Source: an uncultured Clostridia bacterium
GTDB taxonomy: Bacteria > Bacillota > Clostridia > Oscillospirales > Ruminococcaceae
DNA length: 36,851 nt
Assembly: GCA_944382845.1 (NCBI GenBank)
Contig: CALWNN010000056.1
Location: 1 to 36,851, forward strand
Direction of reading: 5' to 3'
Below the pieces are notes generated by a model that was not told where the DNA came from, ran no database searches, and saw nothing but the letters and a program-made list of their open reading frames with translations. Shown piece by piece: positions 6,359 through 36,165 of this stretch. Position 1 is the stretch's first letter; each line of letters begins with the position of its first letter. The translations under genes were made by a program, and so were the position numbers.

Positions 6359-6369
6359 AGGAGGTTTAA

Positions 6370-20742: not shown

Positions 20743-20973
20743 TTTAAATCGGAGTAAAGCCGATTAAGATTGCTTAAAATCAGTTGCAACAATTGTAATT
20801 CGTCATTGTTTAGAGTTTGCTACTCAGGTGGTTTCAAGTTGGGATTCCCGCCTAACGCCCTCAACTGTAATTTTGAACAGAACCCGACGACTTAGGGAAA
20901 AATCTGCCGATCAAGTGGCACGTTTGCAGAATACTCAGCAGGGGTACATCTGAGACATGGTTATATTATATCA
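20743..20973 (-). repeat. Modular leader repeat, copy 1 (diverged), upstream of lepB
   Basis: This copy shares only its ends with copies 2, 3 and 5: the ATCGG-GTAAAGC end next to the lepB ribosome site, and the AATACTC-AGCAGG...GTACATC...GGTTATA end next to the promoter. The interior differs and carries other short inverted repeats. It occupies almost the whole 346-base gap between rplS and lepB and would be transcribed as the lepB leader. Confidence 0.65.
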
Positions 20974-20993
20974 AATTTACAAAGAAAATTCAA
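20965..20993 (-). promoter_or_regulatory. Promoter reading into repeat copy 1 and lepB
   Basis: Minus strand TTGAAT, a 17-base spacer, TATAAT. The transcription start would fall at the edge of the repeat, which makes the repeat a roughly 245-base 5' leader. Confidence 0.7.
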
Positions 20994-21013
20994 GTAATTT
21001 TACTCGTATTATA

Positions 21014-21050
21014 TAAAAAATAAGGAACAAGCCTTGAAAAGCCTGTTCCC
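21014..21050 (-). terminator. Terminator after rplS
   Basis: Minus strand GGAACAGGC, an eight-base loop, GCTTGTTCC followed by TTATTTTTT. It makes rplS monocistronic. Confidence 0.85.
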
Positions 21051-21057
21051 TGAGCAA

Positions 21058-21402
21058 TTATCTGATTGCTTCTTTAACCTTTGCAGCCTTACCAACTCTG
21101 TCTCTGAGATAGTAGAGCTTAGCACGGCGAACACGTCCTGCACGTACAAGTTCAACCTTTTCAACAACAGGTGAATGTACAGGGAATACTCTTTCAATTC
21201 CGCAGCCGTGAGCAACACGTCTTACAGTAAATGTTTCGTTGATACCACCGTGCTTCTTAGCAATAACAGTACCCTCGAAAACCTGAATTCTTGACTTGTC
21301 GCCTTCTTTGATTCTTACGTGTACCTTAACGGTATCACCAATGTTGATCTCAGGAACTTCTTTTTTCATTCCTGACTCTGAAATAAGTTTTAAAGCGTCC
21401 AC
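21058..21402 (-). CDS. rplS: 50S ribosomal protein L19
   Basis: L19 lies at the 30S-50S interface. The 114 residues are full length, with the family hallmarks [20 protein letters not shown], the [10 protein letters not shown] strand and [16 protein letters not shown]. The C-terminus ends in the basic [20 protein letters not shown]. Translation begins at GTG, with CAGGAGG at good spacing; no ATG is available nearby. It has its own promoter, a structured leader of about 135 bases and a terminator. Confidence 0.97.
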
Positions 21403-21409
21403 TTTAAAT

Positions 21410-21540
21410 ACCTCCTGATTTTTCAGACATTCATACGCTTAAACATTCTCAAGCCAGAGGACTATCCATTTAATGTCAGCACTTTTTTGTGCAGTGGCAC
21501 TAACTCTCGTCGCAAAGTCCGACGGTAATTCAAATGCTTA
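21410..21540 (-). promoter_or_regulatory. Candidate L19 leader (autoregulatory mRNA structure)
   Basis: Between promoter and rplS the leader contains a CGTCG/CGACG stem and a GCAC/GTGC stem around an A-rich loop. Two near-identical segments, GTTTAAGCATTTGAAT and GTTTAAGCGTATGAAT, flank the structured part. Firmicutes rplS mRNAs are known to carry an L19-binding leader in this position; I cannot run a covariance model to confirm it. Confidence 0.45.
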
Positions 21541-21543
21541 AAC

Positions 21544-21572
21544 ATTATATCACATATCAGATACAATAGCAA
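21544..21572 (-). promoter_or_regulatory. Promoter of rplS
   Basis: Minus strand TTGCTA, a 17-base spacer, TATAAT, about 140 bases before the GTG start. It lies just past the end of the DUF2344 gene. Confidence 0.65.
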
Positions 21573-21579
21573 TATGGTT

Positions 21580-22299
21580 TTATATAAAATTTTCGCCGTT
21601 TCTGCAAAGAATTTTTGTTCGTTTTGCACTAATATAATTGATATCTATATTATATTTTTCCGAAAACGCATCCAGAAGAGGTGTATAATTAAGATTAAAG
21701 TCGTTGCCTGCGGAAGTAGCAAGCCTTATATTGATTTTTACACCTTCATTTGAAGCTTCAATTCCGAGAAGTTTTACGTATTCCCTGACATCAATTTCCC
21801 TGTGAGTTTCCCTACGGTTTTTCTTAGGCTTAAGTCTTTTCTTTATAATTATTTCGTCTGCGCTAACAAATTCAGAAAAGAATTTAAGAGTTTCTTCCGG
21901 AGGTCTGTCGGTTTTTATAATAATTTCATAATCGGACCTGTAAATATCAAGATGATCGCATACAGGTTCGCCTACAGTTTCAATTCTTATTCCCTCAGGC
22001 ATTACCATATTGAGCCTTGATTTTATTTCTTCATTTTCAAGCTTTTCAAGAAGTGCTACGTCCATAGGTTCAATTTCGCTTTCAACCCCAAGAGAAAGTG
22101 CAAGAGGAAACATGATATACGGATGAGGATTAAAGCCCTGAGTGTACCATATAGGCAATCCTGCTCTTTTAAATGTTCTCTGCATAGCCCTCATTAGGTC
22201 AAGATGAGAGATAAACTTTGCTCTTCCCTTTTTGGAAAAAGTCATTCTATACATATATCTTGTAAGGTTAAGCCCCTGATTTTTTGGCACGTCAGCCAC
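21580..22299 (-). CDS. DUF2344 / TIGR03936-type radical SAM-linked protein
   Basis: The product of about 239 residues contains the YRMTFSKKGRAKFISHLDLMRAMQRTFKRAGLP and QGFNPHP segments that define this family. It is found next to or fused with the TIGR03960 radical SAM protein; the function is not known. I place the start at a GTG that overlaps the upstream gene by eight bases and has GGAGGTG six bases before it. An ATG 33 bases further upstream lies inside the coding sequence of the neighbour and lacks such a site. The overlap suggests coupled translation of two halves of one functional unit. Confidence 0.88.
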   Translation of the reverse strand: MADVPKNQGLNLTRYMYRMTFSKKGRAKFISHLDLMRAMQRTFKRAGLPIWYTQGFNPHPYIMFPLALSLGVESEIEPMDVALLEKLENEEIKSRLNMVMPEGIRIETVGEPVCDHLDIYRSDYEIIIKTDRPPEETLKFFSEFVSADEIIIKKRLKPKKNRRETHREIDVREYVKLLGIEASNEGVKINIRLATSAGNDFNLNYTPLLDAFSEKYNIDINYISAKRTKILCRNGENFI

Positions 22300-24148
22300 A
22301 GTAAACACCTCCGCAGTCTTTTGGAATTCCACATCCTGAGCAACCCTCTTTACAGTTTCTTGTCGTCATTGCTTCGTGCGCCTTTTTATTTTCCCTTACA
22401 AAGAAAGATTTTGAAACAAGATAATCAAGATGATCCCAAGGAAGAATTTCATCATAGCTTCTGAATCTGTTTGCATAAAATTCCGGGTCGATCCCACACT
22501 CATCAAAAGCTTCCTGCCATTTCGGAAAATCAAAATACTCGTCCCAGCTATCAAGCACACAACCCTTTTCCCATGCTCTTAACACAACCTGTCCAACTCT
22601 TCTGTCTCCTCTTGCAAGCACAGCCTCAAGGACGCTTACATCCTGGTTATGATAGCTGAGTTTTATTTTTCTTGAGCTAAGGCTTTCAAGAAGATGCTTT
22701 TGCTTTGCGGAAATTTCTTCTCTTGTTGCTTGAGGTTCAAACTCAAACGGTGTAAAAGGTTTAGGAACAAATGTAGCAGTTGAAATAGATATCTGAATAT
22801 TATTTCCGTTTCTTTTTGACTTGTCTATTGAATAGTAGAGGTCGATTATCTTTTTTCCCAGTTCGGCTATCCCCTCGATATCCTCCATTGTTTCAGTGGG
22901 AAGTCCAAGCATAAAATATAATTTAACCTGAGAATAACCGCCTAAAAACGCAAGCTTACAGGTTTCCATTATTTCTTCTTCCGAGACATTTTTATTGATA
23001 ACATCCCGAAGTCTTTGTGTTCCGGCTTCCGGAGCAAAGGTAAGTCCGCTTTTTCTTATGCGTTGTATCTTTTCAAGAAGCTTTTCACTGAAGTTGTCAA
23101 TTCTGAGAGACGGCAAAGACAGGCTTATATTTTCCTTATCGGTATAGTCAACAAGGTTTTCAAGAAGCATTTCAATTTCTCTGTAGTCGCTTGTGGAAAG
23201 AGAAGAAAGAGAAACCTCTTCATATCCTGTCTGTTCGCAAAGGTATTTTGTCTGACGGGAAATCGTATCTACTTCTTTTTCTCTGAACGGACGGTAGATA
23301 AAACCTGCCTGACAAAACCTGCAACCGCGTATACAGCCTCTCAGAACTTCTACGACTGCTCTGTCGTGAACAATTGAAGTAAAAGGAACAACAAAACTGT
23401 CAGGATAATAGACCTTGTCAAAATCCTTGATAATACGCTTTGTAATTTTTTCAGGAGCTTCCGGTATATTTGGAGTCACAGCTTTTATGGTTCCGTCATC
23501 ATTATAGGAAACATCATAAAATGCGGGAACGTATATCCCTTTTATTTTTGCAGCTTGTCTGAGAAATTCATATTTTTCGGGTCTTTTATCCCTTGCAGGC
23601 TTCATTTTTTCATACAGGGACATCAGTTCAAGATTTACTTCTTCGCCCTCTCCCAAAATAAACAAATCAATAAAATCAGCAAGAGGTTCGGGGTTACAGG
23701 CGCACGGTCCTCCCGCCACAACAACAGGCATATCGTCTGTTCTGTCCTTAGCAAGTACAGGAAGTCCTGCAAGATCAAGCATATTTAGTACGTTAGTATA
23801 TGAAAGCTCATACTGTAAAGTAAAGCCTATAAAATCAAAATCCTTTATAGGGTCAAGGCTTTCAAGTCCGTAAAGTGGGATATTGTTTTCCTGCATTACA
23901 TTTTCAAAATCCTTTTCGGGAGCAAAAACTCTTTCACACCAATAATTTTCCACATTATTTTTCAGACCGTAAAGAATTTTCATGCCAAGGTGTGACATCC
24001 CAACATCGTATGTATCAGGAAAACAAAACGCAAAACGCACATCAACCTTATTCTTGTCCTTGACAACACTTCCTACTTCGCCGCCTATATATCTTGCAGG
24101 TTTCTGGACATTCAGCAATAGCTGCTCGATTTTTTCCTTAAGCTCCAA
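22292..24148 (-). CDS. TIGR03960 family B12-binding-like radical SAM protein
   Basis: The 618-residue protein has an N-terminal cobalamin-binding-like (Rossmann) region and a radical SAM core with the cluster motif CIRGCRFC (C272, C276, C279). A Cys-rich C-terminus follows (CKEGCSGCGIPKDCGG). This architecture is the TIGR03960 family, usually paired with DUF2344. A role in RNA or small-molecule modification has been suggested by annotation only. Translation starts at TTG with GGAGG about nine bases upstream. It is the first gene of a two-gene unit. Confidence 0.93.
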   Translation of the reverse strand: MELKEKIEQLLLNVQKPARYIGGEVGSVVKDKNKVDVRFAFCFPDTYDVGMSHLGMKILYGLKNNVENYWCERVFAPEKDFENVMQENNIPLYGLESLDPIKDFDFIGFTLQYELSYTNVLNMLDLAGLPVLAKDRTDDMPVVVAGGPCACNPEPLADFIDLFILGEGEEVNLELMSLYEKMKPARDKRPEKYEFLRQAAKIKGIYVPAFYDVSYNDDGTIKAVTPNIPEAPEKITKRIIKDFDKVYYPDSFVVPFTSIVHDRAVVEVLRGCIRGCRFCQAGFIYRPFREKEVDTISRQTKYLCEQTGYEEVSLSSLSTSDYREIEMLLENLVDYTDKENISLSLPSLRIDNFSEKLLEKIQRIRKSGLTFAPEAGTQRLRDVINKNVSEEEIMETCKLAFLGGYSQVKLYFMLGLPTETMEDIEGIAELGKKIIDLYYSIDKSKRNGNNIQISISTATFVPKPFTPFEFEPQATREEISAKQKHLLESLSSRKIKLSYHNQDVSVLEAVLARGDRRVGQVVLRAWEKGCVLDSWDEYFDFPKWQEAFDECGIDPEFYANRFRSYDEILPWDHLDYLVSKSFFVRENKKAHEAMTTRNCKEGCSGCGIPKDCGGVYCG

Positions 24149-24205
24149 AATCTTATCCTCCGTTTAATAGAATTTAAACTATTATAACACAAGTAAGCTT
24201 GAATT

Positions 24206-24772
24206 TCAACACAAAAACTCGCAAATTACTATATACACAATAGTTACGCAAAGAGATAGGTTCAGCCCGGAAAACATCATAACAAGAACACATAGACAAA
24301 TAATAAAAAGACTCAGGATTTTTCTTATTTCCTCAACTGTATTTTCTGAGACTCGTGACCTTACCAATACGGTTTTTATTATTTGTCCTCCGTCAAAGTA
24401 TCTGAACGGAAGAAGATTAAAAATTCCAAGTGCAAAGCTTATTGCAAAAAATGTTTTATAGCCGGCATAATAAGCAATTAATCCTGTTAAGAAATTAGCA
24501 ATACAGCCTGCGCTAAAGACAATTATATCTTTCTTGACAGACAAAAGCTTTACATTCGGAACAAGCTTTATGCCTCCTCCGTAAAAAATTATCTTAACGG
24601 GAGGAGTTTTAAATATTATCATAACAAGAATATGACCTGCTTCATGTATCAAACAGCATAAAACAGGCAGAAGTACAGTTAAATTCTCCTCAAAGCAGAA
24701 CATTACTCCGAAAAGGGCAAAAAAACTGAAAGAAAAGCCAAAGGCAACTCCCATGATATTAAATGATATCAT
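24206..24772 (-). CDS. M50 family (site-2/SpoIVFB-like) intramembrane metalloprotease
   Basis: The product of about 188 residues is almost entirely hydrophobic. It carries the zinc motif HEAGH (H43, E44, H47) in the second hydrophobic segment and a downstream NLLPFRYFDGGQI motif, matching the NPDG-type third ligand of site-2 proteases. Length and content resemble SpoIVFB, which processes pro-sigma-K in sporulation. The ATG at 24772 overlaps the stop of the preceding 67-codon gene (ATGA) and has no strong ribosome site, so coupled translation is likely. A longer reading starting at 24817 is less plausible. No CBS domain is present. The nearby SpoVM-like gene supports, but does not prove, a sporulation role. 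Confidence 0.85.
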   Translation of the reverse strand: MISFNIMGVAFGFSFSFFALFGVMFCFEENLTVLLPVLCCLIHEAGHILVMIIFKTPPVKIIFYGGGIKLVPNVKLLSVKKDIIVFSAGCIANFLTGLIAYYAGYKTFFAISFALGIFNLLPFRYFDGGQIIKTVLVRSRVSENTVEEIRKILSLFIICLCVLVMMFSGLNLSLCVTIVYIVICEFLC

Positions 24773-24972
24773 ATCAGACTTTTGAAAAACAAAACAAATC
24801 TGTCGATTATATCGCACATTCTGTTGTTGTCAAATATTGAAAAAATAAGGTTTTCCGCATATTTTAAAAATGCTATAAGCGAGTAAATTGCTCCGGCGAT
24901 AATTGAATTAAGAAAAATAAATTCAAGGCTTGTAATATCTTTTTTATTATAAGTAGAAACATAGCAACTCAT
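24769..24972 (-). CDS. Small membrane protein of unknown function, upstream of M50 protease
   Basis: This 67-residue ORF has a very good TTGGAGGTG site before the ATG, one hydrophobic segment (about residues 17-34, FIFLNSIIAGAIYSLIAF) and a second weakly hydrophobic C-terminal stretch. I do not recognise it. Its stop overlaps the protease start, so the two proteins are made together, and it may be a partner or inhibitor of the protease as BofA and SpoIVFA are for SpoIVFB. That comparison rests on position and size, not on sequence similarity. Confidence 0.7.
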   Translation of the reverse strand: MSCYVSTYNKKDITSLEFIFLNSIIAGAIYSLIAFLKYAENLIFSIFDNNRMCDIIDRFVLFFKSLI

Positions 24973-25027
24973 AACGGCACCTCCAAAAAAGTTACTAAAT
25001 ATTATGAAGGCTCAGATATTTTTAGTA

Positions 25028-25063
25028 CAAAAAATCCGCAAAGGCAAAAACCTCTGCGGATTT
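25028..25063 (-). terminator. Terminator after the SpoVM-like gene
   Basis: Minus strand AAATCCGCAGAGG, a seven-base loop, CCTTTGCGGATTT with a run of six T at its end. It lies four bases past the stop codon of the 27-codon gene. Confidence 0.85.
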
Positions 25064-25067
25064 AATT

Positions 25068-25151
25068 CTATTCCTCTGTTTTCTTTATCTTAAATATCAG
25101 TCTTAATATTCCCGATAAAAATTTAGGACTCTTTACAACTACAATTTTCAT
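25068..25151 (-). CDS. spoVM: SpoVM-like sporulation peptide, 27 aa
   Basis: The peptide (M-K-I-V-V-V-K-S-P-K-F-L-S-G-I-L-R-L-I-F and a KIKKTEE tail) aligns end to end with B. subtilis SpoVM (26 aa). SpoVM is the amphipathic helix that marks the convex forespore membrane and anchors SpoIVA for coat assembly. Shared features are MK at the start, the PKFL.GI.R core with the helix-starting Pro at residue 9, a hydrophobic face, and a charged tail. An ACGGAGGA site precedes the ATG, and a terminator follows directly, so this is a complete monocistronic gene. Its leader is repeat copy 2. Too short for most gene finders; I identified it from the motif and context. Confidence 0.85.
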   Translation of the reverse strand: MKIVVVKSPKFLSGILRLIFKIKKTEE

Positions 25152-25178
25152 ACTAAATTCCTCCGTATTCTTATGTAG

Positions 25179-25452
25179 ATTTAAATCGGAGCAAAGCGTT
25201 GATAAGGATGTCTGCTTTTCAACAGACAGGCTTGATCACGTTGCGACGATTGCAATCTGTCGCTGACTGCAGCAAGCTGCAGATAGGAGCTTTGCTCCTC
25301 AGTTTTTCAGTGGGGGATTAAAACCCCACTGAAAAACTGAATGGAACCCTGCCTTCAATAGGAGGCGAATCATCCCATAGGAGGCGTACCCGCATAATAT
25401 GAGGCAGACCTGCCGAATACTCGGCAGGAGGACATCGGCGACTTATAATACA
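25179..25452 (-). repeat. Modular leader repeat, copy 2, upstream of spoVM
   Basis: A full-length copy of about 270 bases, very similar to copy 3. Read on the minus strand it contains, in order: a conserved GTCGCCGATGT segment; a CCTGCCGA/TCGGCAGG hairpin; further GCCTCC-type units; and a perfect 16-bp stem (CAGTTTTTCAGTGGGG with its complement). After these come GGAGC/GCTCC and CTGCAGC/GCTGCAG hairpins, a conserved CGTCGCAACGTGAT block, a GTCTG/CAGAC hairpin with a GAAA-containing loop, and the GCTTTGCTCCGATTTAAA end. The end lies 13 bases before the spoVM ribosome site. It accounts for most of the 378-base gap. No strong promoter is visible at its upstream edge, only weak TTCAAT/TATAAG hexamers. 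Confidence 0.85.
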
Positions 25453-25529
25453 TATTATTCATTAATTGAAAATTGGTTCTTATTTTTATGGAAATTTAAT
25501 TCTGAATATGATGTAATAAAACTATAAAA

Positions 25530-25871
25530 TTAATTTGCGTATTCAATTACAAGCTTATTTGGAAGGCAAACAATAGGTACGTTTTTGAGCCAACCGGTAT
25601 TAACACAGATATGATCGGGACAATCTGCGTCAAGAATATGGATGTTTCCGTTTTTTATCTCAATAACATTTTTACTTCCGTGATATTCCACTGTAATTAT
25701 ACGGTCATTTTCCTTGCTAAGGTCAATTGTATATATAATCTCGCCGTTTTGTGAAATTATAACCACATTACCCCGATCTCTTCCATGCAGAATAAAAATC
25801 AACGCTATAACAGTTATAACAATTAAAATAACTATAACGGCGACAATTATCCGGCGATTTACTTTATTCAC
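25530..25871 (-). CDS. NusG domain II-containing membrane-anchored protein
   Basis: The 113-residue product has an N-terminal signal anchor (about residues 8-29) and then an extracytoplasmic domain. This carries ILDADCPDHICVNTGWL..VPIVCLPNKLVIEI-type motifs, diagnostic of the NusG_II (DUF) family in which three cysteines are conserved. Such proteins often occur near FMN-binding, Rnf or thiamine-linked lipoproteins, but none is adjacent here. Function unknown. Translation starts at a GTG after an AGGGTGAT stretch. It follows the broken DUF1349 gene by about 100 bases. Confidence 0.85.
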   Translation of the reverse strand: MNKVNRRIIVAVIVILIVITVIALIFILHGRDRGNVVIISQNGEIIYTIDLSKENDRIITVEYHGSKNVIEIKNGNIHILDADCPDHICVNTGWLKNVPIVCLPNKLVIEYAN

Positions 25872-25974
25872 CTGTTTATCACCCTCACCTTCACGTCGGA
25901 ATAAGTACCGTTTGATTTGAAATCATCTTCTATTCTCTCAGGTATTATTCTATTTAATAATCAGCTTTTAAATT

Positions 25975-26581
25975 TCAGTCTTTGTCAGGCTGCTGACCAT
26001 CATGAGCTTTCCACTGGCAATCTGTTATTCTCAAATCAGAAAAAACAGCCCTGAAAGATGAATTTTCAGGAGAACAGGCATAAATCCCGAAAGAAATCTT
26101 TCCTCCGCCTTTATACATATGACATATCCTCATTTGAAAAAAGGTTTCACCATCGTTTGAACATTCAATACAGTAATCGTCTTCCCGTCTGCTGAAACGA
26201 TACCACATTGTTTTTACATCAGAACTGATAGAAGTTGTCGCCCAGTCGGAATAACCATTGTTTGTAACAACGCTTCCCAGATGTTGAAAATTATCATTTT
26301 CATACTCAACAGAAGCCTTAAGCCAATTTTCGCTGTCGAGGTACATAACTATCCCACACTGATCAAACCTTTGATGACTTTCTGAGAAGTCTGTTTTAAC
26401 TATAAAGCTGAAAAACCTTTCTTCTGTATCTATTTGCAGTACGGGGGGCGTTATCGTTTCTGAAATGATAATATGTCCTTTGCCAAAGGTCAGTATGCGG
26501 CTTTGTAACTATCTCTATTCTATCACTTAAAACAACATAGCTTTCCGGTTCACGAGTCCATCGAAAATTACTAAACTCCAT
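25975..26581 (-). pseudogene. DUF1349 (laminin-G-like) protein, split by a one-base frameshift
   Basis: Two adjacent frames together encode one DUF1349 protein of about 201 residues. The first gives MEFSNFRWTREPESY...WQRTYYHFRNDNAP and then goes out of frame. In the next frame the expected continuation VLQIDTEERFFSF...RFDQCGIVMYLDSENWLKASVEYEN appears. The switch falls exactly at a six-G run on the plus strand (26443-26448), where five would restore the frame. This could be a real inactivation, a sequencing error or slippage-based phase variation. The start has GGGGGT upstream and lies just after the flavodoxin-like gene; an alternative ATG is at 26593. DUF1349 proteins are often beta-xylosidase-C-terminal-like with unknown roles. 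Confidence 0.85.
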
Positions 26582-26592
26582 ATTTACCCCCA

Positions 26593-27210
26593 TTAGCGTA
26601 TGAAATGTGTAGGCGTCCAAGGTTCTTTTTCCGGAAGCCCGAACTTTTCCTTGCCAAGAGCGATACACTTCATTAAAAATGTCATGTTTCTTGCAAGAAC
26701 ACGCATTGTCTGCAGTCCCTCTTCGTCCATTTCAGCTTCACCCTTATTTCTTCCATGAATTGAATTCCAGTACTGGCTTGAAGCGATAGGCATATTTGCA
26801 ATTGTAAAGTATTTGTTCAGTTCGTCAAATGTTGCAGAACAGCCACCTCTTCTTGCACACACAACGCTTGCTCCGACCTTCATTGTCTTGTCAAAGTGAG
26901 TACTGTAAAAAAGTCTATCAAGACAGGCAATCAATGTTGCATTCGCAGACGCATAGTAAACAGGGCTTGCAACAACAAGTCCGTCCGCTTCCTCAAAATC
27001 CTTTGCAAGGTCGTTTACAATGTCGTTAAAAACACATTTTCCGGCTTCAAAGCATTTTCCGCAGGCTATACATCCCCTAATGTCTTTATTTCCTATCTGA
27101 ACAATCTTGGCCTCAACATTTTCCTCATCAAATATCTTTTTCATTTCGTTGACTGCAAGAGAAGTATTTCCGTTAATTCTTGGACTTCCGTTAATAATAA
27201 GTACTTTCAT
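26593..27210 (-). CDS. Flavodoxin-family NAD(P)H-dependent oxidoreductase
   Basis: The 205-residue product has the FMN-phosphate motif INGSPRINGNTS near the N-terminus and the VVASPVYYASANA loop typical of the NADPH-dependent FMN reductase/iron-sulfur flavoprotein group. A Cys cluster (GCIACGKCFEAGKC, residues about 48-61) resembles the compact cluster motif of iron-sulfur flavoproteins. The start at MKVLIINGSPR follows CGGGAGG. A longer reading (14 codons more) would run into repeat copy 3. The substrate is not predictable. Its leader is repeat copy 3 with a consensus promoter, and its stop touches a possible start of the DUF1349 gene. Confidence 0.9.
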   Translation of the reverse strand: MKVLIINGSPRINGNTSLAVNEMKKIFDEENVEAKIVQIGNKDIRGCIACGKCFEAGKCVFNDIVNDLAKDFEEADGLVVASPVYYASANATLIACLDRLFYSTHFDKTMKVGASVVCARRGGCSATFDELNKYFTIANMPIASSQYWNSIHGRNKGEAEMDEEGLQTMRVLARNMTFLMKCIALGKEKFGLPEKEPWTPTHFIR

Positions 27211-27232
27211 AAATCTTCCTCCCGAAAAATAT

Positions 27233-27512
27233 TTTAAATCGGAGCAAAGCATTGATAAGGATGTCTGCTTTTCAGCAGACAGGCTTAATCACATTGCGAC
27301 GAAAAGCAATCTGTCGCTGACTGCAGCAAGCTGCAGATAGGAGCTTTGCTCCTCAGTTTTTAAGTGGGGGTCTTAATCCTCCACTGAAAAACTGAGTGGA
27401 ACCCTGCCTCCAATAGGAGGCATATCATCCCATAGGAGGCAGACCCGCCCAATATGAGGCAGACCTGCCGAATACTCGGCAGGTGTACATCGGCGACTTG
27501 GTTATAATGTAT
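27233..27512 (-). repeat. Modular leader repeat, copy 3, upstream of flavodoxin-like gene
   Basis: The most complete copy, about 280 bases, matching copy 2 along nearly its whole length. On the minus strand its hairpins are CCTGCCGA/TCGGCAGG, TGCCTCC/GGAGGCA, a long CAGTTTTT-type stem with two mismatches, GGAGC/GCTCC, CTGCAGC/GCTGCAG, and GTCTGCT-GAAA-AGCAGAC with a GNRA-type loop. It ends 10 bases before the GGGAGG site of the oxidoreductase gene. It fills most of the 393-base gap between that gene and hpr. Confidence 0.85.
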
Positions 27513-27541
27513 ATCATATCACAACTTTTATATGAAATCAA
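27513..27541 (-). promoter_or_regulatory. Promoter reading into repeat copy 3
   Basis: Minus strand TTGATT, a 17-base spacer, TATGAT, ending at the edge of the repeat, so the whole repeat would be transcribed as leader. Confidence 0.65.
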
Positions 27542-27562
27542 CTGTCTTATCACTAACAATTC

Positions 27563-27586
27563 ACCCTGTCCATAAACGGACAGGGT
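27563..27586 (-). terminator. Hairpin after hpr, possible terminator
   Basis: Minus strand ACCCTGTCC, six bases, GGACAGGGT. The stem is perfect, but the following GAATTGTTAG is not a T-tract, so termination may be weak or factor-assisted. Confidence 0.5.
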
Positions 27587-27603
27587 AATGTTTATAAATA
27601 AAA

Positions 27604-27864
27604 TTAAAGATTTTCTTCAAGGAACTCTTTTACCTTTTCAATCGCTGTGTCTTCGTCGTCTCCTTCTGCTTTAACAGTAATAACATCTCCGCATTTAACT
27701 CCCAAGCCCATAAGCATCATAAGCTTTGTAGCTGATGCAGACTTTTCACCTTTTGAAATAGTTACTGTGCTTGAAAACTCTTTACAACACAGCTTAGCAA
27801 GCTGACCTGCCGGTCTTGCGTGTATTCCCACTTCATCCTTAATTGTGTAATCAAATGATTTCAT
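27604..27864 (-). CDS. HPr-family phosphocarrier protein, lacking the Ser46 site
   Basis: HPr passes phosphate from Enzyme I to sugar-specific EIIA. The 86-residue product has the active H15 in GIHARPAG. Around the regulatory site the sequence reads SASATKLMMLMGLG: aligned to B. subtilis HPr (LKSIMGVMSLG), Ser46 is replaced by Lys47, with Thr46 just before. The protein should take part in phosphotransfer but may not be a target of HPr kinase in the classical way. It is 36 bases after treC with a CAGGAGG site, so it is probably made with the trehalose genes. It may be a dedicated carrier or the general HPr of the cell. Confidence 0.93.
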   Translation of the reverse strand: MKSFDYTIKDEVGIHARPAGQLAKLCCKEFSSTVTISKGEKSASATKLMMLMGLGVKCGDVITVKAEGDDEDTAIEKVKEFLEENL

Positions 27865-27900
27865 AACAATACCTCCTGAGTATTTCCATTAAGATCAAAT

Positions 27901-29535: not shown

Positions 29536-29548
29536 ATGAAACCTCCTG

Positions 29549-31507
29549 TTAATCCCAAGTTATAATTTTTGTTTCGCCTGATACAGCGTCCATGCCAAAG
29601 TTGAAATGTATATTTTTAGCATTACCCTCATCAGAAACACAGATAACGGTAGTTGTGGGGTGACCGGCAGATTTGATTTTTTCAATTGAAAATCCAATAA
29701 GCTTATCGCCCTTCTTGACTTTATCTCCTGTTGAAACATACATTGTAAATCCATCGCCGTTCATTTCTACTGTATTGATTCCCACATGTATAAGAAGTTC
29801 AAGATCGTTTGAGAGTTTAAGTCCGCAGGCATGGTTGCTTCCGTCCATAACCACTGTTATTTCAGCGTCACACGGAGCAACAATTACTTCATCTGTCGGC
29901 TCAACAGCAATACCGTCTCCCAAAACTTTCTGAGAGAAAACATCATCGGGAACATCTTCAATTGAAATAACCTTTCCTGAAACAGGTGCGTAAATCGCAT
30001 TTTCAATATCTGAATTTTCAGTATTGCTTTCTTCTGATGTTGAGCTTAATGAGGCTGAACTTTCTGTTTCAGGTACTTTCACTGTCTGAGCATTAACAGA
30101 AAGCTTTTTCTTTCCTACGATAATTGTGAGTACAAAAGGAACAACTATTGCAACTGCCATACAAAGGAGAAATATTCCCCAGTATTCTGATTTGATGGAA
30201 AGTATGCCGGGAATACCTCCGACGCCTATACTGAACGCCTCTACTCCAAAGCCCACTGATATTATAGCAGCAATAGAAGAGCCTATCATTCCGCAGATAA
30301 GAGGAAATCCGTATTTTAAGTTTACACCGAAAAGTGCTGGTTCGGTAACTCCAAGATAGCAGGAAATAAAAGCAGGAATATTTATCTGCTTAGCCTGTTC
30401 GTTTTTCCTCTGCAACACTGCCATACCAAGAACGGCAGAGCCCTGAGCAATGTTACTTAATGCGATCATTGGCCAAAGGATAGTTCCTCCATAAGTGGTA
30501 GAAAGAGTGGTATCAATTGCATTTGTCATATGGTGAAGTCCGGTCATAACAACAGGAGCATAAAGAAGTCCGAATAATCCTGCAAAGATAACACCGTAAT
30601 TTGACATGAGTCCATTGTATACAACATTGGCAATGGCGTCGCCGATCTTCCAACCGATAGGTCCTACAACTGTATGAGCAATAATAACAGCCGGAACAAG
30701 TGAGCAGAAAGGAACAACAATCATGCTTACCACAGCAGGAGTTATCTTACGGAAAAATTTTTCGAGATAAACAAGAACAAAGCCGGCCAAAATAGCTGCT
30801 ATTACCTGACCTTGATATCCAATCATCTGAACCTTTGCAAAGCCGAAATCCCAGACCGGAATTTCAGACGCAGGTGTTGACGCAACAGAAAAACCGTTAA
30901 GCAGCTGAGGCGAAACAAGGGTAAGACCTAAAACTATACCTAATATCTGAGTCGTACCCATTTTTTTAGTGATGGACCATACTATACCTACAGGGAGCAA
31001 ATGGAAAACCGCTTCGCCGATAAGCCAGAGAAAGCTATACAGACCTGCCCAGAACTGTGATATATCCGCAAGGCTCTTGGTTCCGTTATCAAAGAAATTT
31101 ATCTCACCGATAATATTTCTGAATCCAAGAATAAGACCGCCACAAATAAGCGCAGGAATAATAGGTGCAAAAATTTCTCCAAGATTGCTCATAAGACGCT
31201 GTATGAAATTCTGATTGCCCTTTGCCGCTTCCTTTGCAGCTTCTTTATTGACCCCTTCAATTCCGGCAACATCAGTAAATTCCTTATAAAACTCTGCAAC
31301 GTCGTTTCCGATAATTACCTGAAACTGTCCTGCCTGAGTAAACGTTCCCTTTACCGAGGCAAGTTCATCAATCTTTTTTGTGTCAGCAAGTTTTGTATCA
31401 CCAAGCACAAATCTCATTCTTGTCATGCAGTGCGTTACTGCACTGATGTTTTTTGCTCCGCCTACAAGTTCAAGAAGCGAAGCTGCATCATTACGATATT
31501 TTCCCAT
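29549..31507 (-). CDS. treP: Trehalose-specific PTS permease EIIBCA
   Basis: This membrane transporter phosphorylates trehalose as it takes it up. The 652-residue product has an N-terminal EIIB domain with phosphorylated C27 in SAVTHCMTRMRF, a central EIIC of about ten membrane segments, then a Ser/Glu-rich linker (SSASLSSTSEESNTENS). A complete EIIA domain follows, with the active H574 in LLIHVGINTVEMNG. Most B. subtilis-type TreP lack the fused EIIA, so this one needs only HPr as donor, consistent with hpr in the same operon. The start is at MGKYRNDAASLLELVGG; a reading 13 codons longer is possible but lacks a proper ribosome site. Confidence 0.92.
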   Translation of the reverse strand: MGKYRNDAASLLELVGGAKNISAVTHCMTRMRFVLGDTKLADTKKIDELASVKGTFTQAGQFQVIIGNDVAEFYKEFTDVAGIEGVNKEAAKEAAKGNQNFIQRLMSNLGEIFAPIIPALICGGLILGFRNIIGEINFFDNGTKSLADISQFWAGLYSFLWLIGEAVFHLLPVGIVWSITKKMGTTQILGIVLGLTLVSPQLLNGFSVASTPASEIPVWDFGFAKVQMIGYQGQVIAAILAGFVLVYLEKFFRKITPAVVSMIVVPFCSLVPAVIIAHTVVGPIGWKIGDAIANVVYNGLMSNYGVIFAGLFGLLYAPVVMTGLHHMTNAIDTTLSTTYGGTILWPMIALSNIAQGSAVLGMAVLQRKNEQAKQINIPAFISCYLGVTEPALFGVNLKYGFPLICGMIGSSIAAIISVGFGVEAFSIGVGGIPGILSIKSEYWGIFLLCMAVAIVVPFVLTIIVGKKKLSVNAQTVKVPETESSASLSSTSEESNTENSDIENAIYAPVSGKVISIEDVPDDVFSQKVLGDGIAVEPTDEVIVAPCDAEITVVMDGSNHACGLKLSNDLELLIHVGINTVEMNGDGFTMYVSTGDKVKKGDKLIGFSIEKIKSAGHPTTTVICVSDEGNAKNIHFNFGMDAVSGETKIITWD

Positions 31508-31627
31508 ACCGCATTCCGTCCTTTCATGTAAAATTAAACGTAACATATAAAACAGAAGCTATTATTAATTATTTGCAATGTCAAGGTAGAATATCAATTT
31601 TAGTTTTCAGCTCTCATCCTTGTTAAT

Positions 31628-31656
31628 ATTATGACTTGTTTAAACAAGTTCGTCAA
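31628..31656 (-). promoter_or_regulatory. treP promoter with TreR operator in the spacer
   Basis: Minus strand TTGACG, a 17-base spacer, CATAAT. The spacer is occupied by the perfect palindrome ACTTGTTTAAACAAGT (31634-31649), so a bound repressor would exclude RNA polymerase. The palindrome matches the other site at treR and resembles the TreR operators of B. subtilis. Confidence 0.8.
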
Positions 31657-31684
31657 GTGCTTTTTTGATTTTCCTAAAAGTTTG

Positions 31685-31738
31685 TTGACAAAGCACAAAA
31701 ATTGTGATATACTATTGTCTAACTTGTATATACAAGTT
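31685..31738 (+). promoter_or_regulatory. treR promoter and downstream TreR operator
   Basis: TTGACA, a 17-base spacer, TATACT (31685-31713), followed by the perfect palindrome AACTTGTATATACAAGTT (31721-31738) at the expected transcription start. This indicates autoregulation. The leader of about 67 bases to the treR start shows nothing else. Confidence 0.85.
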
Positions 31739-31787
31739 CAGCAATCAGTTATACTATCAAAAAACAGTTAATAAAGAAAGTGATATT

Positions 31788-32513
31788 ATGCCAAAAACAA
31801 AATACGATGGAATATACCAAGAGCTTCAAAGCAGAATATTTGACGGAACATATGCATATCAGCAGACAATACCATCGGAGACTATGCTCACAAGCGAATT
31901 TGGCTGTTCAAGAAACACGGTAAGGCGGGCAATTGAAATGTTGTCGTCTGAGGGTTTTGTTCAGTCTGTTCACGGAAAAGGAGTTATTGTAATTTACGAT
32001 GCTGAGAAGCATTCAATTTTTTCCTTGAACAGGATTGAATCATTTACAGAAGCTTCGGTAAGGAATAATCTTGATTATGTTACAAAAGTACTGCTTTTTT
32101 CCGAACTTGAAACAGACGAACGCATAAGCCGAAGGACAGGCTTTCCTGTAGGATGTGAGATATATTACATTCAACGTCTACGTATAATCGACGGGTCACC
32201 TCTTATTATCGACCATAATTATTTCAGAAAAGACATTGTAAAAGGCCTTACAAAAGAAATTGCCAAAGGTTCGATTTACGCTTATATTGAAGGCAAATTA
32301 GGAATCGTAATTACCACTACAAAGCGAGTTATAAGAGTTGAGCCAATTACAGAGCACGACGAGAAATATTTACAGCTTGACGGATGCAACTGTGTTGCTG
32401 CGATAAACAATTCCACATATAACAGCAATGGAGAAATGTTTGAGTTCACCCAATCAAGGCACAGTCCGAAATACTTTGAGTTTCACGAAATATCTCACCG
32501 AAGCAGCATATAA
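31788..32513 (+). CDS. treR: GntR-family trehalose operon repressor TreR
   Basis: The 241-residue protein has an N-terminal GntR winged helix (IYQELQSRIFDGTYAY..TIPSETMLTSEFGCSRNTVRRAIEMLSSEGFVQSVHGKG) and a C-terminal UTRA effector domain with PRY-like strands and the FEFTQSRHSP motif. TreR releases DNA in response to trehalose-6-phosphate in characterised Firmicutes. The ATG giving MPKTKYDGIYQEL is preceded by GAAAGTGAT, a weak site. A longer reading from 31704 would begin inside the promoter and is rejected. It is divergent from treP-treC-hpr, with paired operators between. Confidence 0.92.
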   Translation: MPKTKYDGIYQELQSRIFDGTYAYQQTIPSETMLTSEFGCSRNTVRRAIEMLSSEGFVQSVHGKGVIVIYDAEKHSIFSLNRIESFTEASVRNNLDYVTKVLLFSELETDERISRRTGFPVGCEIYYIQRLRIIDGSPLIIDHNYFRKDIVKGLTKEIAKGSIYAYIEGKLGIVITTTKRVIRVEPITEHDEKYLQLDGCNCVAAINNSTYNSNGEMFEFTQSRHSPKYFEFHEISHRSSI

Positions 32514-32516
32514 TAC

Positions 32517-32555
32517 AAAAACCGGTCTTTTATTACAAAAGATCGGTTTTTTATG
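32517..32555. terminator. Terminator after treR, probably bidirectional
   Basis: ACCG-GTCTTTT, a short loop, AAAAGATCGGT followed by six T on plus. On the minus strand the same hairpin is followed by five T, so it could also end a transcript of repeat copy 4. Confidence 0.8.
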
Positions 32556-32556
32556 C

Positions 32557-32684
32557 TTTATAAATCAGAGCAAAGTTCCTAAGCAGGTTTCATGAGTTGT
32601 TTTTATCAAAGATAAAAAAATAGCTCAATATTCCTAACCCGCCGTATATTCGACATAGGAACATCGGCGAACCGGTTATAAAAT
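32557..32684 (-). repeat. Modular leader repeat, copy 4 (short form, not upstream of a gene)
   Basis: About 128 bases carrying only the two conserved ends: TTATAACC..TTCGCCGATGTTCC and GCTTTGCTC-GATTTATAAA. The middle is replaced by short AT-rich hairpins, and the CCTGCCGA hairpin is degraded. It lies between treR and the SDR gene, which converge, and it is not followed by a ribosome site. Confidence 0.65.
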
Positions 32685-32704
32685 AATACCCTTCTCTGAA
32701 TCAA
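32675..32704 (-). promoter_or_regulatory. Possible promoter of repeat copy 4
   Basis: Minus strand TTGATT, an 18-base spacer, TATAAC, the -10 lying inside the conserved TTATAACC end of the repeat. With the terminator at 32517-32555 it would make a free transcript of roughly 150 bases. Confidence 0.4.
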
Positions 32705-32730
32705 ACACTAAAAAAGCGCATTTATTGAAT

Positions 32731-32762
32731 CTGCTCATGTCAATAATACTTGACATGAGCAG
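32731..32762. terminator. Perfect 13-bp hairpin after the SDR gene, possible terminator
   Basis: CTGCTCATGTCAA, six bases, TTGACATGAGCAG. It is seven bases past the SDR stop. It lacks a T-tract on either strand, so it may instead stabilise the transcript's 3' end. Confidence 0.5.
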
Positions 32763-32769
32763 TATACAT

Positions 32770-33522
32770 TTAATATCCGTATGGGCTGTCAAACTCTGCT
32801 TCTGCTTTTTTTATTGCATCTTCAAGGGTCATGCCTGTAAAATGCGGCGCAGCTAAATATCTTCCGGATTTTTTATCATCGACAAATACGCCGACAATTA
32901 CGCCGGGTATTGCGCTTTCCGGTGCATTCGGAGCGTGAGGCCCGCCCAAGTCTGTCCTGCACCAGCCCGGATCTGTCAGATTAATCATAACGTTTGTACC
33001 CTCTATCTTTGAGCCAAGATCGATAGTAACTTTGTCAAGTGCAGCCTTGCTTGCCGAATATCCTGCTTGTTCCGGCTCAAGACGTATTCCGCTTGTTGTA
33101 TTCACAATGCGTCCGAAGCCTCTTTCGATCATTTTAGGCAGAAAATGATAGCATATCATCATGGGAGCAATTGTGTTTATAAGGAAGCTTTTTTCATAGT
33201 CCTCCACCGGTGTTTTCAGATAATCTGTACGGTATGCGATCTGTACAGCCGCATTATTGAGTACAATGTCTATCTGAGTACCATTATTATCGATCAATTC
33301 AAGCATTTTCTTTACAGCGTCAAGGTCTGAAAGTTCTGCGGCAACTGGGTATACTTCAATTCCGTAAGTCTTTAATTCGTCGACAAGCTTTTCCGTATGC
33401 TTTAACTCTCTGCTTTGCAAAACAAGATTACAACCGTATTCGGCGAGACTTTTAGCCGCAAGATAACCTATTCCTCGGCTCGCTCCGGTTACCAAAGCCC
33501 ATTTTCCTTTAACATCAACCAT
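32770..33522 (-). CDS. SDR family oxidoreductase
   Basis: The 250-residue product is a classical short-chain dehydrogenase. It has the NAD(P)-binding TGASRGIG at residues 12-19, NNAA at 89-92, the catalytic S144 and the Y155-x3-K159 pair in YSASK. The substrate is unknown. The ATG overlaps the end of the epimerase gene by eight bases and has AAAGGAGA upstream. It is the third gene of the operon whose first two encode an iron alcohol dehydrogenase and an extended SDR. Confidence 0.93.
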   Translation of the reverse strand: MVDVKGKWALVTGASRGIGYLAAKSLAEYGCNLVLQSRELKHTEKLVDELKTYGIEVYPVAAELSDLDAVKKMLELIDNNGTQIDIVLNNAAVQIAYRTDYLKTPVEDYEKSFLINTIAPMMICYHFLPKMIERGFGRIVNTTSGIRLEPEQAGYSASKAALDKVTIDLGSKIEGTNVMINLTDPGWCRTDLGGPHAPNAPESAIPGVIVGVFVDDKKSGRYLAAPHFTGMTLEDAIKKAEAEFDSPYGY

Positions 33523-34537
33523 TTTTCAAAATCTCCTTTTTTGTAATTTCAATTGCATCAATTACTTTGTCGCACCAACAGTCAAACTCCGGATCCTCAC
33601 GCTGATATTCAGGATGATCAAGAATATATTGAAGCGTTTTTCTTATGCCCTCGTCAAAACGCACCGTAGCTTTAAAACCGGGAACCGCTCTTTTCAGTTT
33701 ATCGTTGTCAAAAACCACGGAATTTGCCTTGTCGCCGATAAGACTTCCTCTAAAATCATGGTCGCTTACCGCATTAAGAAAATCAGAAGAAATATGATAC
33801 GGATTAAGTTTAACTCCAAGAGCATTTGCAATTGAATGATATATCTGATTCCATGTAAGTGTTTCGTCCGAAGTGATCTGGAACGCCTCGCCTATTGCAT
33901 GGATATTTCCCATAAGACCGACAAAACCTTTAGCAAAATCACTGTTGTGAGTCATCGTCCAAAGAGATGTCCCGTCTCCGTGTATAATTACAGGTTTACC
34001 TTCAAGCATTCGCTTTACTACCTGCCAGCTTCCGTTTCTGCCGTGAACGCCCAGCGGTACGGAACGCTCGTCATAGGTATGGCTGGGACGAATTACCGTC
34101 ACAGGAAAACCGTTTTCCCTGTACATCTTCATAAGAAACTCTTCACAGGCTATCTTGTTTCTTGAATATTCCCAGTACGGATTTGCAAGCGCAGTTCTCT
34201 CGCTTATGACATAATCCGAAACGGGCTTATGATATGCGGATGCAGAACTGATATACATAAACTGATTTGTTTTGCCGTTAAACAGTCTGAAATCCCGCTC
34301 TAACTGTTCGGGAACAAATCCGATAAAATCACATACTGAGTCAAAGGTCATTCCATTAAGCTTTTTTGCAACATCGATCTCGTCATTGATATCTGCACTA
34401 ATCACATGAACGTTCTGCGGAAGTTCTCTTTTCTGCGTTCCGCGATTAAGAAGATAAACCTCCCATTCTTTTTCCGCAAGAAGCTTTGTAATTGCCATGC
34501 TGATAGTACCCGTGCCACCAATCAGTAATGCTTTCAT
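33515..34537 (-). CDS. NAD-dependent epimerase/dehydratase (extended SDR)
   Basis: The 340-residue product has the Rossmann motif GGTGTIS near residues 8-14, the ISSASAYH catalytic Ser region and YSRNK as the Tyr/Lys pair. The C-terminal part resembles sugar-nucleotide or flavonoid-reductase-like extended SDRs; the actual substrate cannot be told. It follows the iron alcohol dehydrogenase by 13 bases with a GAAAGGAAT site. Grouping with two other dehydrogenases suggests a small redox or sugar-modification pathway. Confidence 0.9.
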   Translation of the reverse strand: MKALLIGGTGTISMAITKLLAEKEWEVYLLNRGTQKRELPQNVHVISADINDEIDVAKKLNGMTFDSVCDFIGFVPEQLERDFRLFNGKTNQFMYISSASAYHKPVSDYVISERTALANPYWEYSRNKIACEEFLMKMYRENGFPVTVIRPSHTYDERSVPLGVHGRNGSWQVVKRMLEGKPVIIHGDGTSLWTMTHNSDFAKGFVGLMGNIHAIGEAFQITSDETLTWNQIYHSIANALGVKLNPYHISSDFLNAVSDHDFRGSLIGDKANSVVFDNDKLKRAVPGFKATVRFDEGIRKTLQYILDHPEYQREDPEFDCWCDKVIDAIEITKKEILKNG

Positions 34538-34550
34538 ATTATCATTCCTT

Positions 34551-35732
34551 TCAGATTTCAGTTTTAGCTGCTATGTGGTATATATTTGAAATGTCCTCAG
34601 TTGAAAGCGGTACAAATCCTCCCGTTTTACCATCGCCCAATCCAAACTTTTTAACCAGCTCAGGGATATCTTCTTCCTTTGCACCGAGCTGCTCAAAGTT
34701 TATTGGCATTCCGATATCGAAAAGGAACCTTCTGAATCTGCGGATACCGTTTAACGCCGTGTCCGCAGGATTCACAAAATTCATTTCGCAACCCCAGATA
34801 CGTACAGCCATTTGTGCAAATCTCATCACATTGTGCGAGTATACATATTCCATCCATGCCGGCATAATCACAGCCAGTCCTGCTCCGTGCGCACAATCGT
34901 ACAATCCGGACAGCTCGTGCTCGATAGCGTGGCTGTTCCAGTCCTGACTCCTGCCTACCCCCACTATATCGTTATGAGCTACAGTCCCGGCCCACATTAT
35001 ATTTGCCCTTGCCTGATAATTATGAGGATCGGCAATTACTCGAGGAGTTTCTTTGATCATGGTAAGCAGAACAGCCTCGCACAGACGGTCGGTTATCTCG
35101 ACTTCAGCCGTGTTTGTAAAATAGCGTTCAAAAACATGAGCCATAATATCTGTTGCTCCACAGGCGGTCTGATATGCACTAAGCGTTTCCGTCAGCTCAG
35201 GGTCAAGAATCGAAAACTTTGGGCGCAGTAAATCTGAGCCTGTGCTACGTTTTAGCATACCTTCCTCCTTAGTGATCACCGAGGCTCCAGAACCCTCGCT
35301 GCCTGCCGCTGCGATAGTCAGGACCGTACCAACCGGAACAGCTTTTTCAATTTTAGCTTTGCCAGTGTAAAAATCCCAAAAATTTCCGTCATACAAAGCG
35401 CCTGCTGCGATTGCCTTAGAAGAGTCGATACACGAACCTCCTCCGACTGAAAGTATGAAGTCTATATTCTCTCTGCGGCACAGTTCTATTCCCTCGTATA
35501 CCTTTGTATCACGGGGATTCGGTTTGACTCCTCCCAAAAGTACATATTCGATACCTGATAGATCCAAAGATTTTGTTACTCGTTCAATAAGTCCAGAACG
35601 CACTGCCGAGCCCGAACCGTAATGCACAAGGACCTTAGTGCCTCTGTACTTTTTTACATATTTTCCACATTCAATAACAGTGTTTTTCCCGAATATGAAT
35701 TCTGTCGGACTGTAAAAATGAAAGTTATCCAT
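34551..35732 (-). CDS. Iron-containing (butanol-type) alcohol dehydrogenase
   Basis: The 393-residue protein belongs to the group III iron-dependent alcohol dehydrogenases. Visible are the N-terminal FYSPTEFIFGK stretch, the NAD-binding GGGSCIDSSKAIAAG, and the metal-site histidines in NSHAIEHELSGLYDCAHGAGLAVIMPAWMEY. Relatives are annotated as NADPH-dependent butanol or lactaldehyde dehydrogenases; substrate unknown. I chose the ATG giving MDNFHFYSP, preceded by AGAGGAGT. A start nine codons earlier has no site. It is the first gene of the operon, with its own promoter, and repeat copy 5 lies about 190 bases upstream. Confidence 0.92.
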   Translation of the reverse strand: MDNFHFYSPTEFIFGKNTVIECGKYVKKYRGTKVLVHYGSGSAVRSGLIERVTKSLDLSGIEYVLLGGVKPNPRDTKVYEGIELCRRENIDFILSVGGGSCIDSSKAIAAGALYDGNFWDFYTGKAKIEKAVPVGTVLTIAAAGSEGSGASVITKEEGMLKRSTGSDLLRPKFSILDPELTETLSAYQTACGATDIMAHVFERYFTNTAEVEITDRLCEAVLLTMIKETPRVIADPHNYQARANIMWAGTVAHNDIVGVGRSQDWNSHAIEHELSGLYDCAHGAGLAVIMPAWMEYVYSHNVMRFAQMAVRIWGCEMNFVNPADTALNGIRRFRRFLFDIGMPINFEQLGAKEEDIPELVKKFGLGDGKTGGFVPLSTEDISNIYHIAAKTEI

Positions 35733-35798
35733 AATAATTACTCCTCTTAAACCTTGCAAAATCTGACAGTATATAATAACATTATTTCTGTTTTATTG

Positions 35799-35827
35799 AG
35801 TATACCACAACTTAATTAATTATTCAA
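35799..35827 (-). promoter_or_regulatory. Promoter of the alcohol dehydrogenase operon
   Basis: Minus strand TTGAAT, a 17-base spacer, TATACT, about 67 bases before the start codon. Confidence 0.7.
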
Positions 35828-35923
35828 GTATATAACACTCAAAAAATCGATGCAAAGCTTGTGATATTATCACTTATAAAGCTACAAAATTCATAGTCAT
35901 AAAAGTGCAAATATTTTGTTTAA

Positions 35924-36165
35924 TTTAAATCGGAGCAAAGCGTTGATAATTACATCTATTTCAGAGCTAAACATCTCTTTCAGAGCTAAACATCTCTTTC
36001 AGAGCTAAACATCTCTTTCAGAGCTGTGCTTAATCACGTTGCGACGAAAAAGCAACCTGCCTCCTGTGGGAGACAGACCCGCCTAATAGGAGGCTGACCT
36101 GCTGAATAATCAGCAGGTCAGCCGTTTAGGCAGGGGAACATCGGCGACTTGATTATACTTTACTT
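35924..36165 (-). repeat. Modular leader repeat, copy 5, upstream of alcohol dehydrogenase
   Basis: About 240 bases. The shared ends are near-identical to copies 2 and 3, and the CGTCGCAACGTGAT block is retained. The CCTGCCGA-type hairpin is here a 14-bp stem GGCTGACCTGCTGA/TCAGCAGGTCAGCC. In place of the GTCTG-type hairpin stand four tandem 19-base units. It is further from its gene than copies 1-3 and has a second promoter between. Confidence 0.8.
35951..36026 (-). repeat. Four tandem 19-bp hairpin units inside repeat copy 5
   Basis: Units at 35951-35969, 35970-35988, 35989-36007 and 36008-36026. The second and third are identical on the plus strand (AACATCTCTTTCAGAGCTA). The first differs at two positions, which breaks its small stem. 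The fourth differs in its last base. Units 2-4 each form a four-base-pair CTCT/AGAG hairpin. Confidence 0.9.

Follow-up and report, generated by a model that had tools for sequence, protein, structure and literature searches.

A mobile family of modular hairpin repeats in an uncultured Clostridia bacterium and its relatives

Five intergenic elements in a 36,851-nucleotide (nt) stretch of contig CALWNN010000056.1, from an uncultured Clostridia bacterium of the family Ruminococcaceae (assembly GCA_944382845.1), belong to a large repeat family with fixed ends and an interior assembled from interchangeable hairpins. Here, "the window" denotes this whole stretch, and "the host" the genome from which it comes. 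Copies of the element in the host and in related genomes, sites that are empty in congeners and the anatomy of the ends lead us to favour a reading in which these are non-autonomous, structured mobile elements, similar to miniature inverted-repeat transposable elements (MITEs), which are probably moved as single-stranded DNA by an enzyme acting in trans.

Results

Copies in the window and in the host genome

The 3′ end of the element, GCTTTGCTCCGATTTAAA, has five matches in the window at up to three mismatches, all on the minus strand, compared with a mean of 0.08 in 100 shuffled sequences. Six matches to GTCGCCGATGT were detected at up to one mismatch: exact in copies 2, 3 and 5, with one mismatch in copy 4, and the remaining two outside the elements, at 6794 and 30638; copy 1 reads GTCTCAGATGT instead, which places it beyond the one-mismatch limit. 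Read along the minus strand, all five copies open with TATAA, followed by a 5′ end that resembles CCAAGTCGCCGATGT; in copies 1 and 4 this end is diverged, and in copy 2 it is shortened. Successive hairpins then lead to a terminal CGATTTAAA, for which copy 4 has TGATTTATA. Blocks common to copies 2 and 3 are 89–94% identical, and the minus strand of the copy 2 region (25170–25470) folds with a z score of −8.7 relative to 100 shuffles. The original prediction, of a single family with fixed ends, a variable hairpin interior and one orientation within the window, is borne out, as are its descriptions of copy 1 as diverged, copy 4 as short and copy 5 as altered in its inner modules with its ends kept; the right edges of its elements were drawn 4–8 bases too far.

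Across the host assembly (2.14 Mb, 93 contigs), the further copies that this prediction called for are present, with 156 matches to the 3′ end at up to two mismatches and 126 to the 5′ end at up to one mismatch (three and one, respectively, in reversed controls). Since copies of both orientations occur elsewhere in the genome, the common orientation of the five window copies follows the replication or gene direction of this stretch. A profile detected 80 elements in ten contigs or contig pieces (748 kb of sequence within 772 kb, window included), and 40 further stretches (305 kb), picked around known ends, brought the total to 137 host 5′ ends in about 1.05 Mb. A 3′ end lies within 480 bases of 108 of these. 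Among the other 29, 10 run off a contig end. In 18 of the 19 left, no further 3′ end turns up as far as the next copy, the 5-kb limit or the end of the stretch; the last has its next 3′ end at 1.9 kb, yet carries a short TGATTTAAA end of its own. No transposase-bearing version was found behind any of the 137 5′ ends in this part of the genome, the remainder of which was seen in part. Copies run off the ends of host contigs C7, C22, C25, C29, C50, C55, C63, C84 and C85, showing that the repeat breaks the assembly at contig ends and that our copy counts are therefore floors.

On the sense strand, which is the minus strand of the window, the layout is TATAA / C(C)-X-ATGTCCCC, tandem hairpins, an optional X′, hairpins, and TTTAAA or TTGAA; the conserved stretch starts at TATAACC and stops at TTTAAA, with A/T-rich flanks. 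The 108 complete host copies are 41–452 nt long (87–330 nt in 102 of them). Twelve hairpin modules, scored with mismatches allowed, occur in 62 combinations among these copies, seven of which contain none of the twelve, and some units form tandem arrays, with as many as five copies in the case of a 19-nt unit. That the elements encode no protein, as predicted, is upheld: no listed open reading frame (ORF) of at least 80 amino acids (aa) lies inside any window copy, and the longest closed ORF within the 108 host copies spans 64 aa. At 19205–19329 of host contig C7, two outward-facing 3′ ends lie about 125 nt apart, a possible end-to-end inverted derivative.

Searches with Rfam 15 at gathering and relaxed thresholds returned nothing at gathering over the element, in line with the initial failure to recognise an RNA family; matches above gathering were confined to neighbours (FMN, tRNA, SRP RNA), and those over the element were sub-threshold, such as mir-2062 on a palindromic hairpin (27.3 bits against a cut-off of 90). 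No description of the family was found in open-licence PubMed Central papers, where three of the element's own sequences retrieved one unrelated paper.

Mobility and target site

Window site 1 is empty in congeners G002 and G004, and site 2 in G002, G003 and G004, with the neighbouring genes kept. Empty orthologous sites imply that the element moves, and we are confident that the family is mobile. Near-identical copies with different flanks occur in genomes G128 and G504, where no target duplication is visible, and flanks of 77 host copies showed no repeats beyond a low background (at the best offset, 4 nt in common in 8 of 77 and 5 nt in 4 of 77). These data bear on the possibility that the family is instead a classical MITE or a repeat of the BOX kind, mobilised by an insertion sequence transposase of the double-strand (DDE) type, with target duplications that have since decayed or are too small to be seen. 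Such an element would likewise be short, gene-free and multi-copy with A/T-rich flanks, and the ends here loosely resemble inverted repeats (TATAACC..AAGTCG / TTTAAATCG); however, they are poorly inverted, and neither a target duplication nor a transposase-bearing version was seen in the copies described above, making this explanation unlikely.

The starting TAA is the in-frame stop codon of an upstream ORF of at least 80 codons in 17 of the 108 host copies (TATAA in 13, GATAA or AATAA in 4); in the other two frames, 2 and 5 ORFs are open through the element start. A joined-flank search for congener loci of five such sites gave 18 alignments, six of them readable across the junction, and all six retain the stop codon at the same position (TATAA in two, TTTAA in two, TGTAA in one, TGA in one). 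Together, the at-stop copies and the retained stop codons lead us to assign TATAA to the target rather than to the element; it looks like a pre-existing target, with this support coming from the host only. The proportion of copies at stop codons fits random use of extragenic TATAA sites (8 of 49 versus 90 of 800, p 0.26; seven copies lacking xATAA are left out of this comparison). At 6392–6434 of contig C10 in G128, two head-to-head copies have one TATA in common, as expected if the target is not duplicated.

Structure of the element

The AAGTCG and CGATTT ends are able to pair, but since both arms are nearly invariant, this pairing gives no covariation evidence. Compact copies in other genera retain the layout, with hairpins of the types GCC..GGC and TTTCAGTGGGGG..CCCCCACTGAAA. 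Across these copies, segment X, adjoining the 5′ end, and the downstream segment X′ co-vary, as in GTCGCCGA/TCGGCGAC, GGCAAG/CTTGCC, AACAAGTGCA/TGCACTTGTT, AATAAATGTA/TGCATTTATT, CAGACG/CGTCTG and GCTGCCGA/TCGGCAGC. For 17 of 30 chosen representatives that could be parsed by script (13 failed a pattern), the mean X/X′ pairing score was 17.4 when matched and 13.9 (standard deviation 0.66) when permuted, and none of 10,000 permutations scored as high; taken singly, 6 of the 17 outscore all 16 other partners. RNAalifold predicts 24 pairs in alignment A2, seven of them with changes on both sides. An attC-like arrangement, with AAC..GTT about the helix, was entertained as a further reading and not adopted.

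The loop of the central hairpin corresponds with the 3′ end, CAAT occurring with TTGAA in 22 and TAAT with TTAAA in 28 of 54 parsed candidates. Of the four exceptions, two reflect another hairpin caught by the script; most of the 186 candidates were unparsed and the copies are not independent, so that shared descent limits this correspondence to a lead. Some subfamilies, seen in loci L264–L281, L287 and L396, have a 3′ portion made up of the hairpin unit TGACGGGGC..GCCCCTTATTGAA; in L287 this unit also follows a complete element, and it may be a separate repeat.

Orientation and gene context

Gene context, taken from genes that a simple ORF script had called, was usable for 74 of the 80 profile-detected elements. 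Where both neighbouring genes run in one direction, 39 copies are oriented with the genes and 12 against them. Judged by local GC skew, 58 of 74 copies lie on the G-rich strand, including 17 of 22 between divergent or convergent genes, and where the neighbouring genes are on the strand opposite to the G-rich one, four copies follow the genes and five oppose them. The same strand holds 34 of 49 copies in a second host set and 41 of 61 elsewhere (relatives, named genomes and viral contigs). Orientation thus agrees with the direction of replication no less than with that of transcription, the two being not fully separable.

The excess of copies oriented with the genes also counts in favour of a transcribed cis-regulatory leader RNA, attenuator- or riboswitch-like, which would have spread through regulating downstream genes and in which X′ could pair with X or with a following hairpin. 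Of the 39 codirectional copies, 22 end 16–60 nt before a called start, several copies lie, by eye, just after promoter-like sites, and the compensated X/X′ helix fits as well. The hypervariable interior speaks against such a leader, as do the lack of a common function among the downstream genes in the window (signal peptidase, FMN reductase, Fe-alcohol dehydrogenase), the seven copies between convergent genes and the 12 oriented against both neighbours. Furthermore, the sense strand folds no better than the antisense strand (35 of 59, p 0.19), G-T and A-C mismatches number 20 and 13 (p 0.30), the promoter excess is weak (34 of 108, shuffled mean 22), and the distribution is patchy and bursting; we consider this explanation improbable. 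At about 1501–1930 of locus L214, an antisense copy lies between a promoter-like site and a T-box-like leader that scores below gathering.

Lowest among the alternatives, and very improbable in our estimate, stands an RNA-borne element that a reverse transcriptase of the group II intron type, acting in trans, would copy into single-stranded DNA on the lagging strand. The lack of visible target duplication would fit, as would the target motif at the 5′ end, the strand bias and a compensated structure reminiscent of RNA. Against this, no group II domain reached Rfam gathering in the searched loci (no search aimed at reverse transcriptases was made), the single match below threshold, in L123, is kilobases away from the element, and the element ends appear unlike intron ends.

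Distribution among genomes

A covariance model, R1, was built from 17 sequences. It gave matches in 20 of the 298 genomes from the host's family, in 14 of 295 sampled across the order (seven from the host's family, the other seven from four further families) and in 8 of 299 sampled across the phylum, with the host counted each time; at most about nine candidates were scored per genome under strict filters, so copy numbers are floors. The phylum-wide matches consist of the host and seven weak loci, four of which read TATAAC..ATGTCCCCC and three of which are a similar but different repeat. Congeners G002–G004 hold one or two weak R1 copies each. The exact pattern TATAACN{3,12}ATGTCCCC occurs in 34 of 397 family genomes, in bursts of 66 in the host, 42 in G128, 53 in G504 and 57 in G614, with none in four congeners, 8–14 matches in three genomes and 1–4 in the rest; single matches may be due to chance, as the reversed control also gives them.

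The X type GGCAAG recurs in genera g1, g3, g6 and g16, which suggests transfer between genera, and copies are present on three viral contigs, one of them truncated. Sixteen stretches with an exact 3′ end in genome contigs were read individually, and 12 are elements: three from CAMMVF, five from CALXIQ, and one each from Ruminococcus sp. FC2018, a reindeer Ruminococcus, CASFSH and Monoglobus merdigallinarum. L116 holds only an inverted pair of ends; L112, L114 and L118 look like chance 3′-end matches and were set aside. Searches of a phage collection with a window copy, with pieces of L275 and L395 and with the whole 14.5 kb of L395 were negative, as were those of a plasmid collection with a window copy and a piece of L275. 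In more distant bacteria, L397, L399 and L402 carry a related-looking repeat with a TTTATCC start and a GGTGGGGGTAGAGTCCCCCACC-type hairpin, situated in L399 upstream of tRNA and SRP RNA genes.

Features of the window

Copy 2 ends about 28 nt before an ATG with GGAGG upstream, conserved in three congeners, at which no ORF of at least 80 aa is listed. At 24206–25151 of the window, this GGAGG start (about 25151) is conserved in the three congeners and the listed ORF, matching peptidase M50, does not begin until 24817; a frameshift or an assembly error may affect the gene at this point. Adjacent ORFs of 386 and 379 aa at 5198–7509 contain direct repeats with 78–90% identity and look like a tandem gene duplication.

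Table 1 Copies of the element in the window, with extents counted from the first T of TATAA through the last A.
Copy	Position	Strand	Description
1	20743..20965	-	Diverged; TATAA at 20961-20965, element 20743-20960; directly upstream of the signal peptidase gene
2	25180..25447	-	Long form, modules H1, H3-H6 and H8; begins TATAAGTCGCC, without the usual CCAA
3	27233..27506	-	Long form resembling copy 2; ~22 nt upstream of the FMN-reductase gene
4	32559..32680	-	Short form, central hairpin differs; between convergent genes
5	35924..36157	-	Ends conserved, without central modules, four 19-nt hairpin units; upstream of the Fe-alcohol dehydrogenase gene

Discussion

Taken together, the absence of a visible duplication, the fixed flank at the 5′ end, the folded strand and the strand bias recall single-strand transposition. 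The IS200/IS605 family moves without target duplication. We lean towards a non-autonomous element mobilised in trans, while holding the single-strand mechanism itself more tentatively, at slightly less than even confidence.

Several observations weigh against this reading. Matches to the Y1 transposase domain Y1_Tnp are not enriched among carriers (5 of 16, compared with 7 of 16 genomes picked as non-carriers, one of which, G002, holds a weak copy); with no association, we rejected Y1 transposase as the helper. The sole Y1 match in the host (contig C31, 251–484) is a fragment with two stop codons. The strand bias is confounded with gene direction, since the G-rich strand also carries 495 of the 671 called genes. 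RNAalifold predicts no pair of the X/X′ helix in alignment A2, and the full 8-nt X′ is present in only 11 of 108 host copies (GCGAC in 50 of 108), so the helix is dispensable for the persistence of copies in the host. Lastly, TATAA itself is found in only two of the six readable empty sites, and copies from sources other than the host show no excess at stop codons (5, 7 and 8 of 61 by frame).

Under the single-strand reading, an enzyme supplied in trans would mobilise the element as single-stranded DNA, and hairpins would be gained and lost as by-products of copying a strongly folded strand. Intergenic placement would be the outcome of selection against gene disruption, and any effects on downstream genes would be possible by-products rather than the cause of the family. 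A bolder version, which we think rather unlikely, is a new class of non-autonomous single-strand element (DNA or RNA), in which the X/X′ helix would act as a subfamily recognition key and the hairpin loop would guide the choice of 3′ end, with a not-yet-known enzyme and phage-borne spread.

The family is an abundant mobile one lacking an Rfam model; its carriers are Ruminococcus relatives and further members of that order. Copies occupy 5′ leaders and the gaps within operons, retain a compensated structure and interrupt assemblies, with 10 of the 137 host 5′ ends running off a contig end. The helper enzyme, once found, would tell us if single-strand transposition includes another system in addition to IS200/IS605, and the rebuilding of hairpins offers a natural record of how folded repeats grow.

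Passages of PMC3049150 describe BOX elements of Streptococcus pneumoniae and S. suis, with 125 copies in one genome that its authors think parasitic, as having fixed end modules, variable middle modules and stem-loops, together with terminal inverted repeats and target duplications. The likeness to BOX that was originally proposed holds for the layout of fixed ends and variable middle and fails for the target duplication; a TATAA target, the strand bias and the occurrence in several bacterial families of one order further set our elements apart, by description and not by sequence. IS200/IS605 and REP/RAYT systems, in the relevant sections of PMC6006769 and PMC5371812, have recognised end hairpins and a short conserved flank at the left end, and the latter source also reports a lagging-strand-template bias for IS200/IS605; hairpins and a short flank beside the left end are likewise found here, as is a strand bias, which is confounded with gene direction. 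The elements differ from IS200/IS605 in lacking an association with Y1 transposase and in forming one multi-hairpin unit, mostly of 87–330 nt. With the MITEs RUP, Correia, ERIC and Nezha, characterised in parts of PMC3049150 and PMC10969869 as short, non-coding, multi-copy, stem-loop-forming and presumably mobilised in trans, they have these properties in common, mobilisation in trans being presumed here too; they differ in having no long terminal inverted repeats, no visible duplication and an interior rebuilt from interchangeable hairpins. The repeats described here are thus a genuine, large mobile family, kin in kind to small interspersed repeats, whose combination of features is unlike that of any family with which we compared it.

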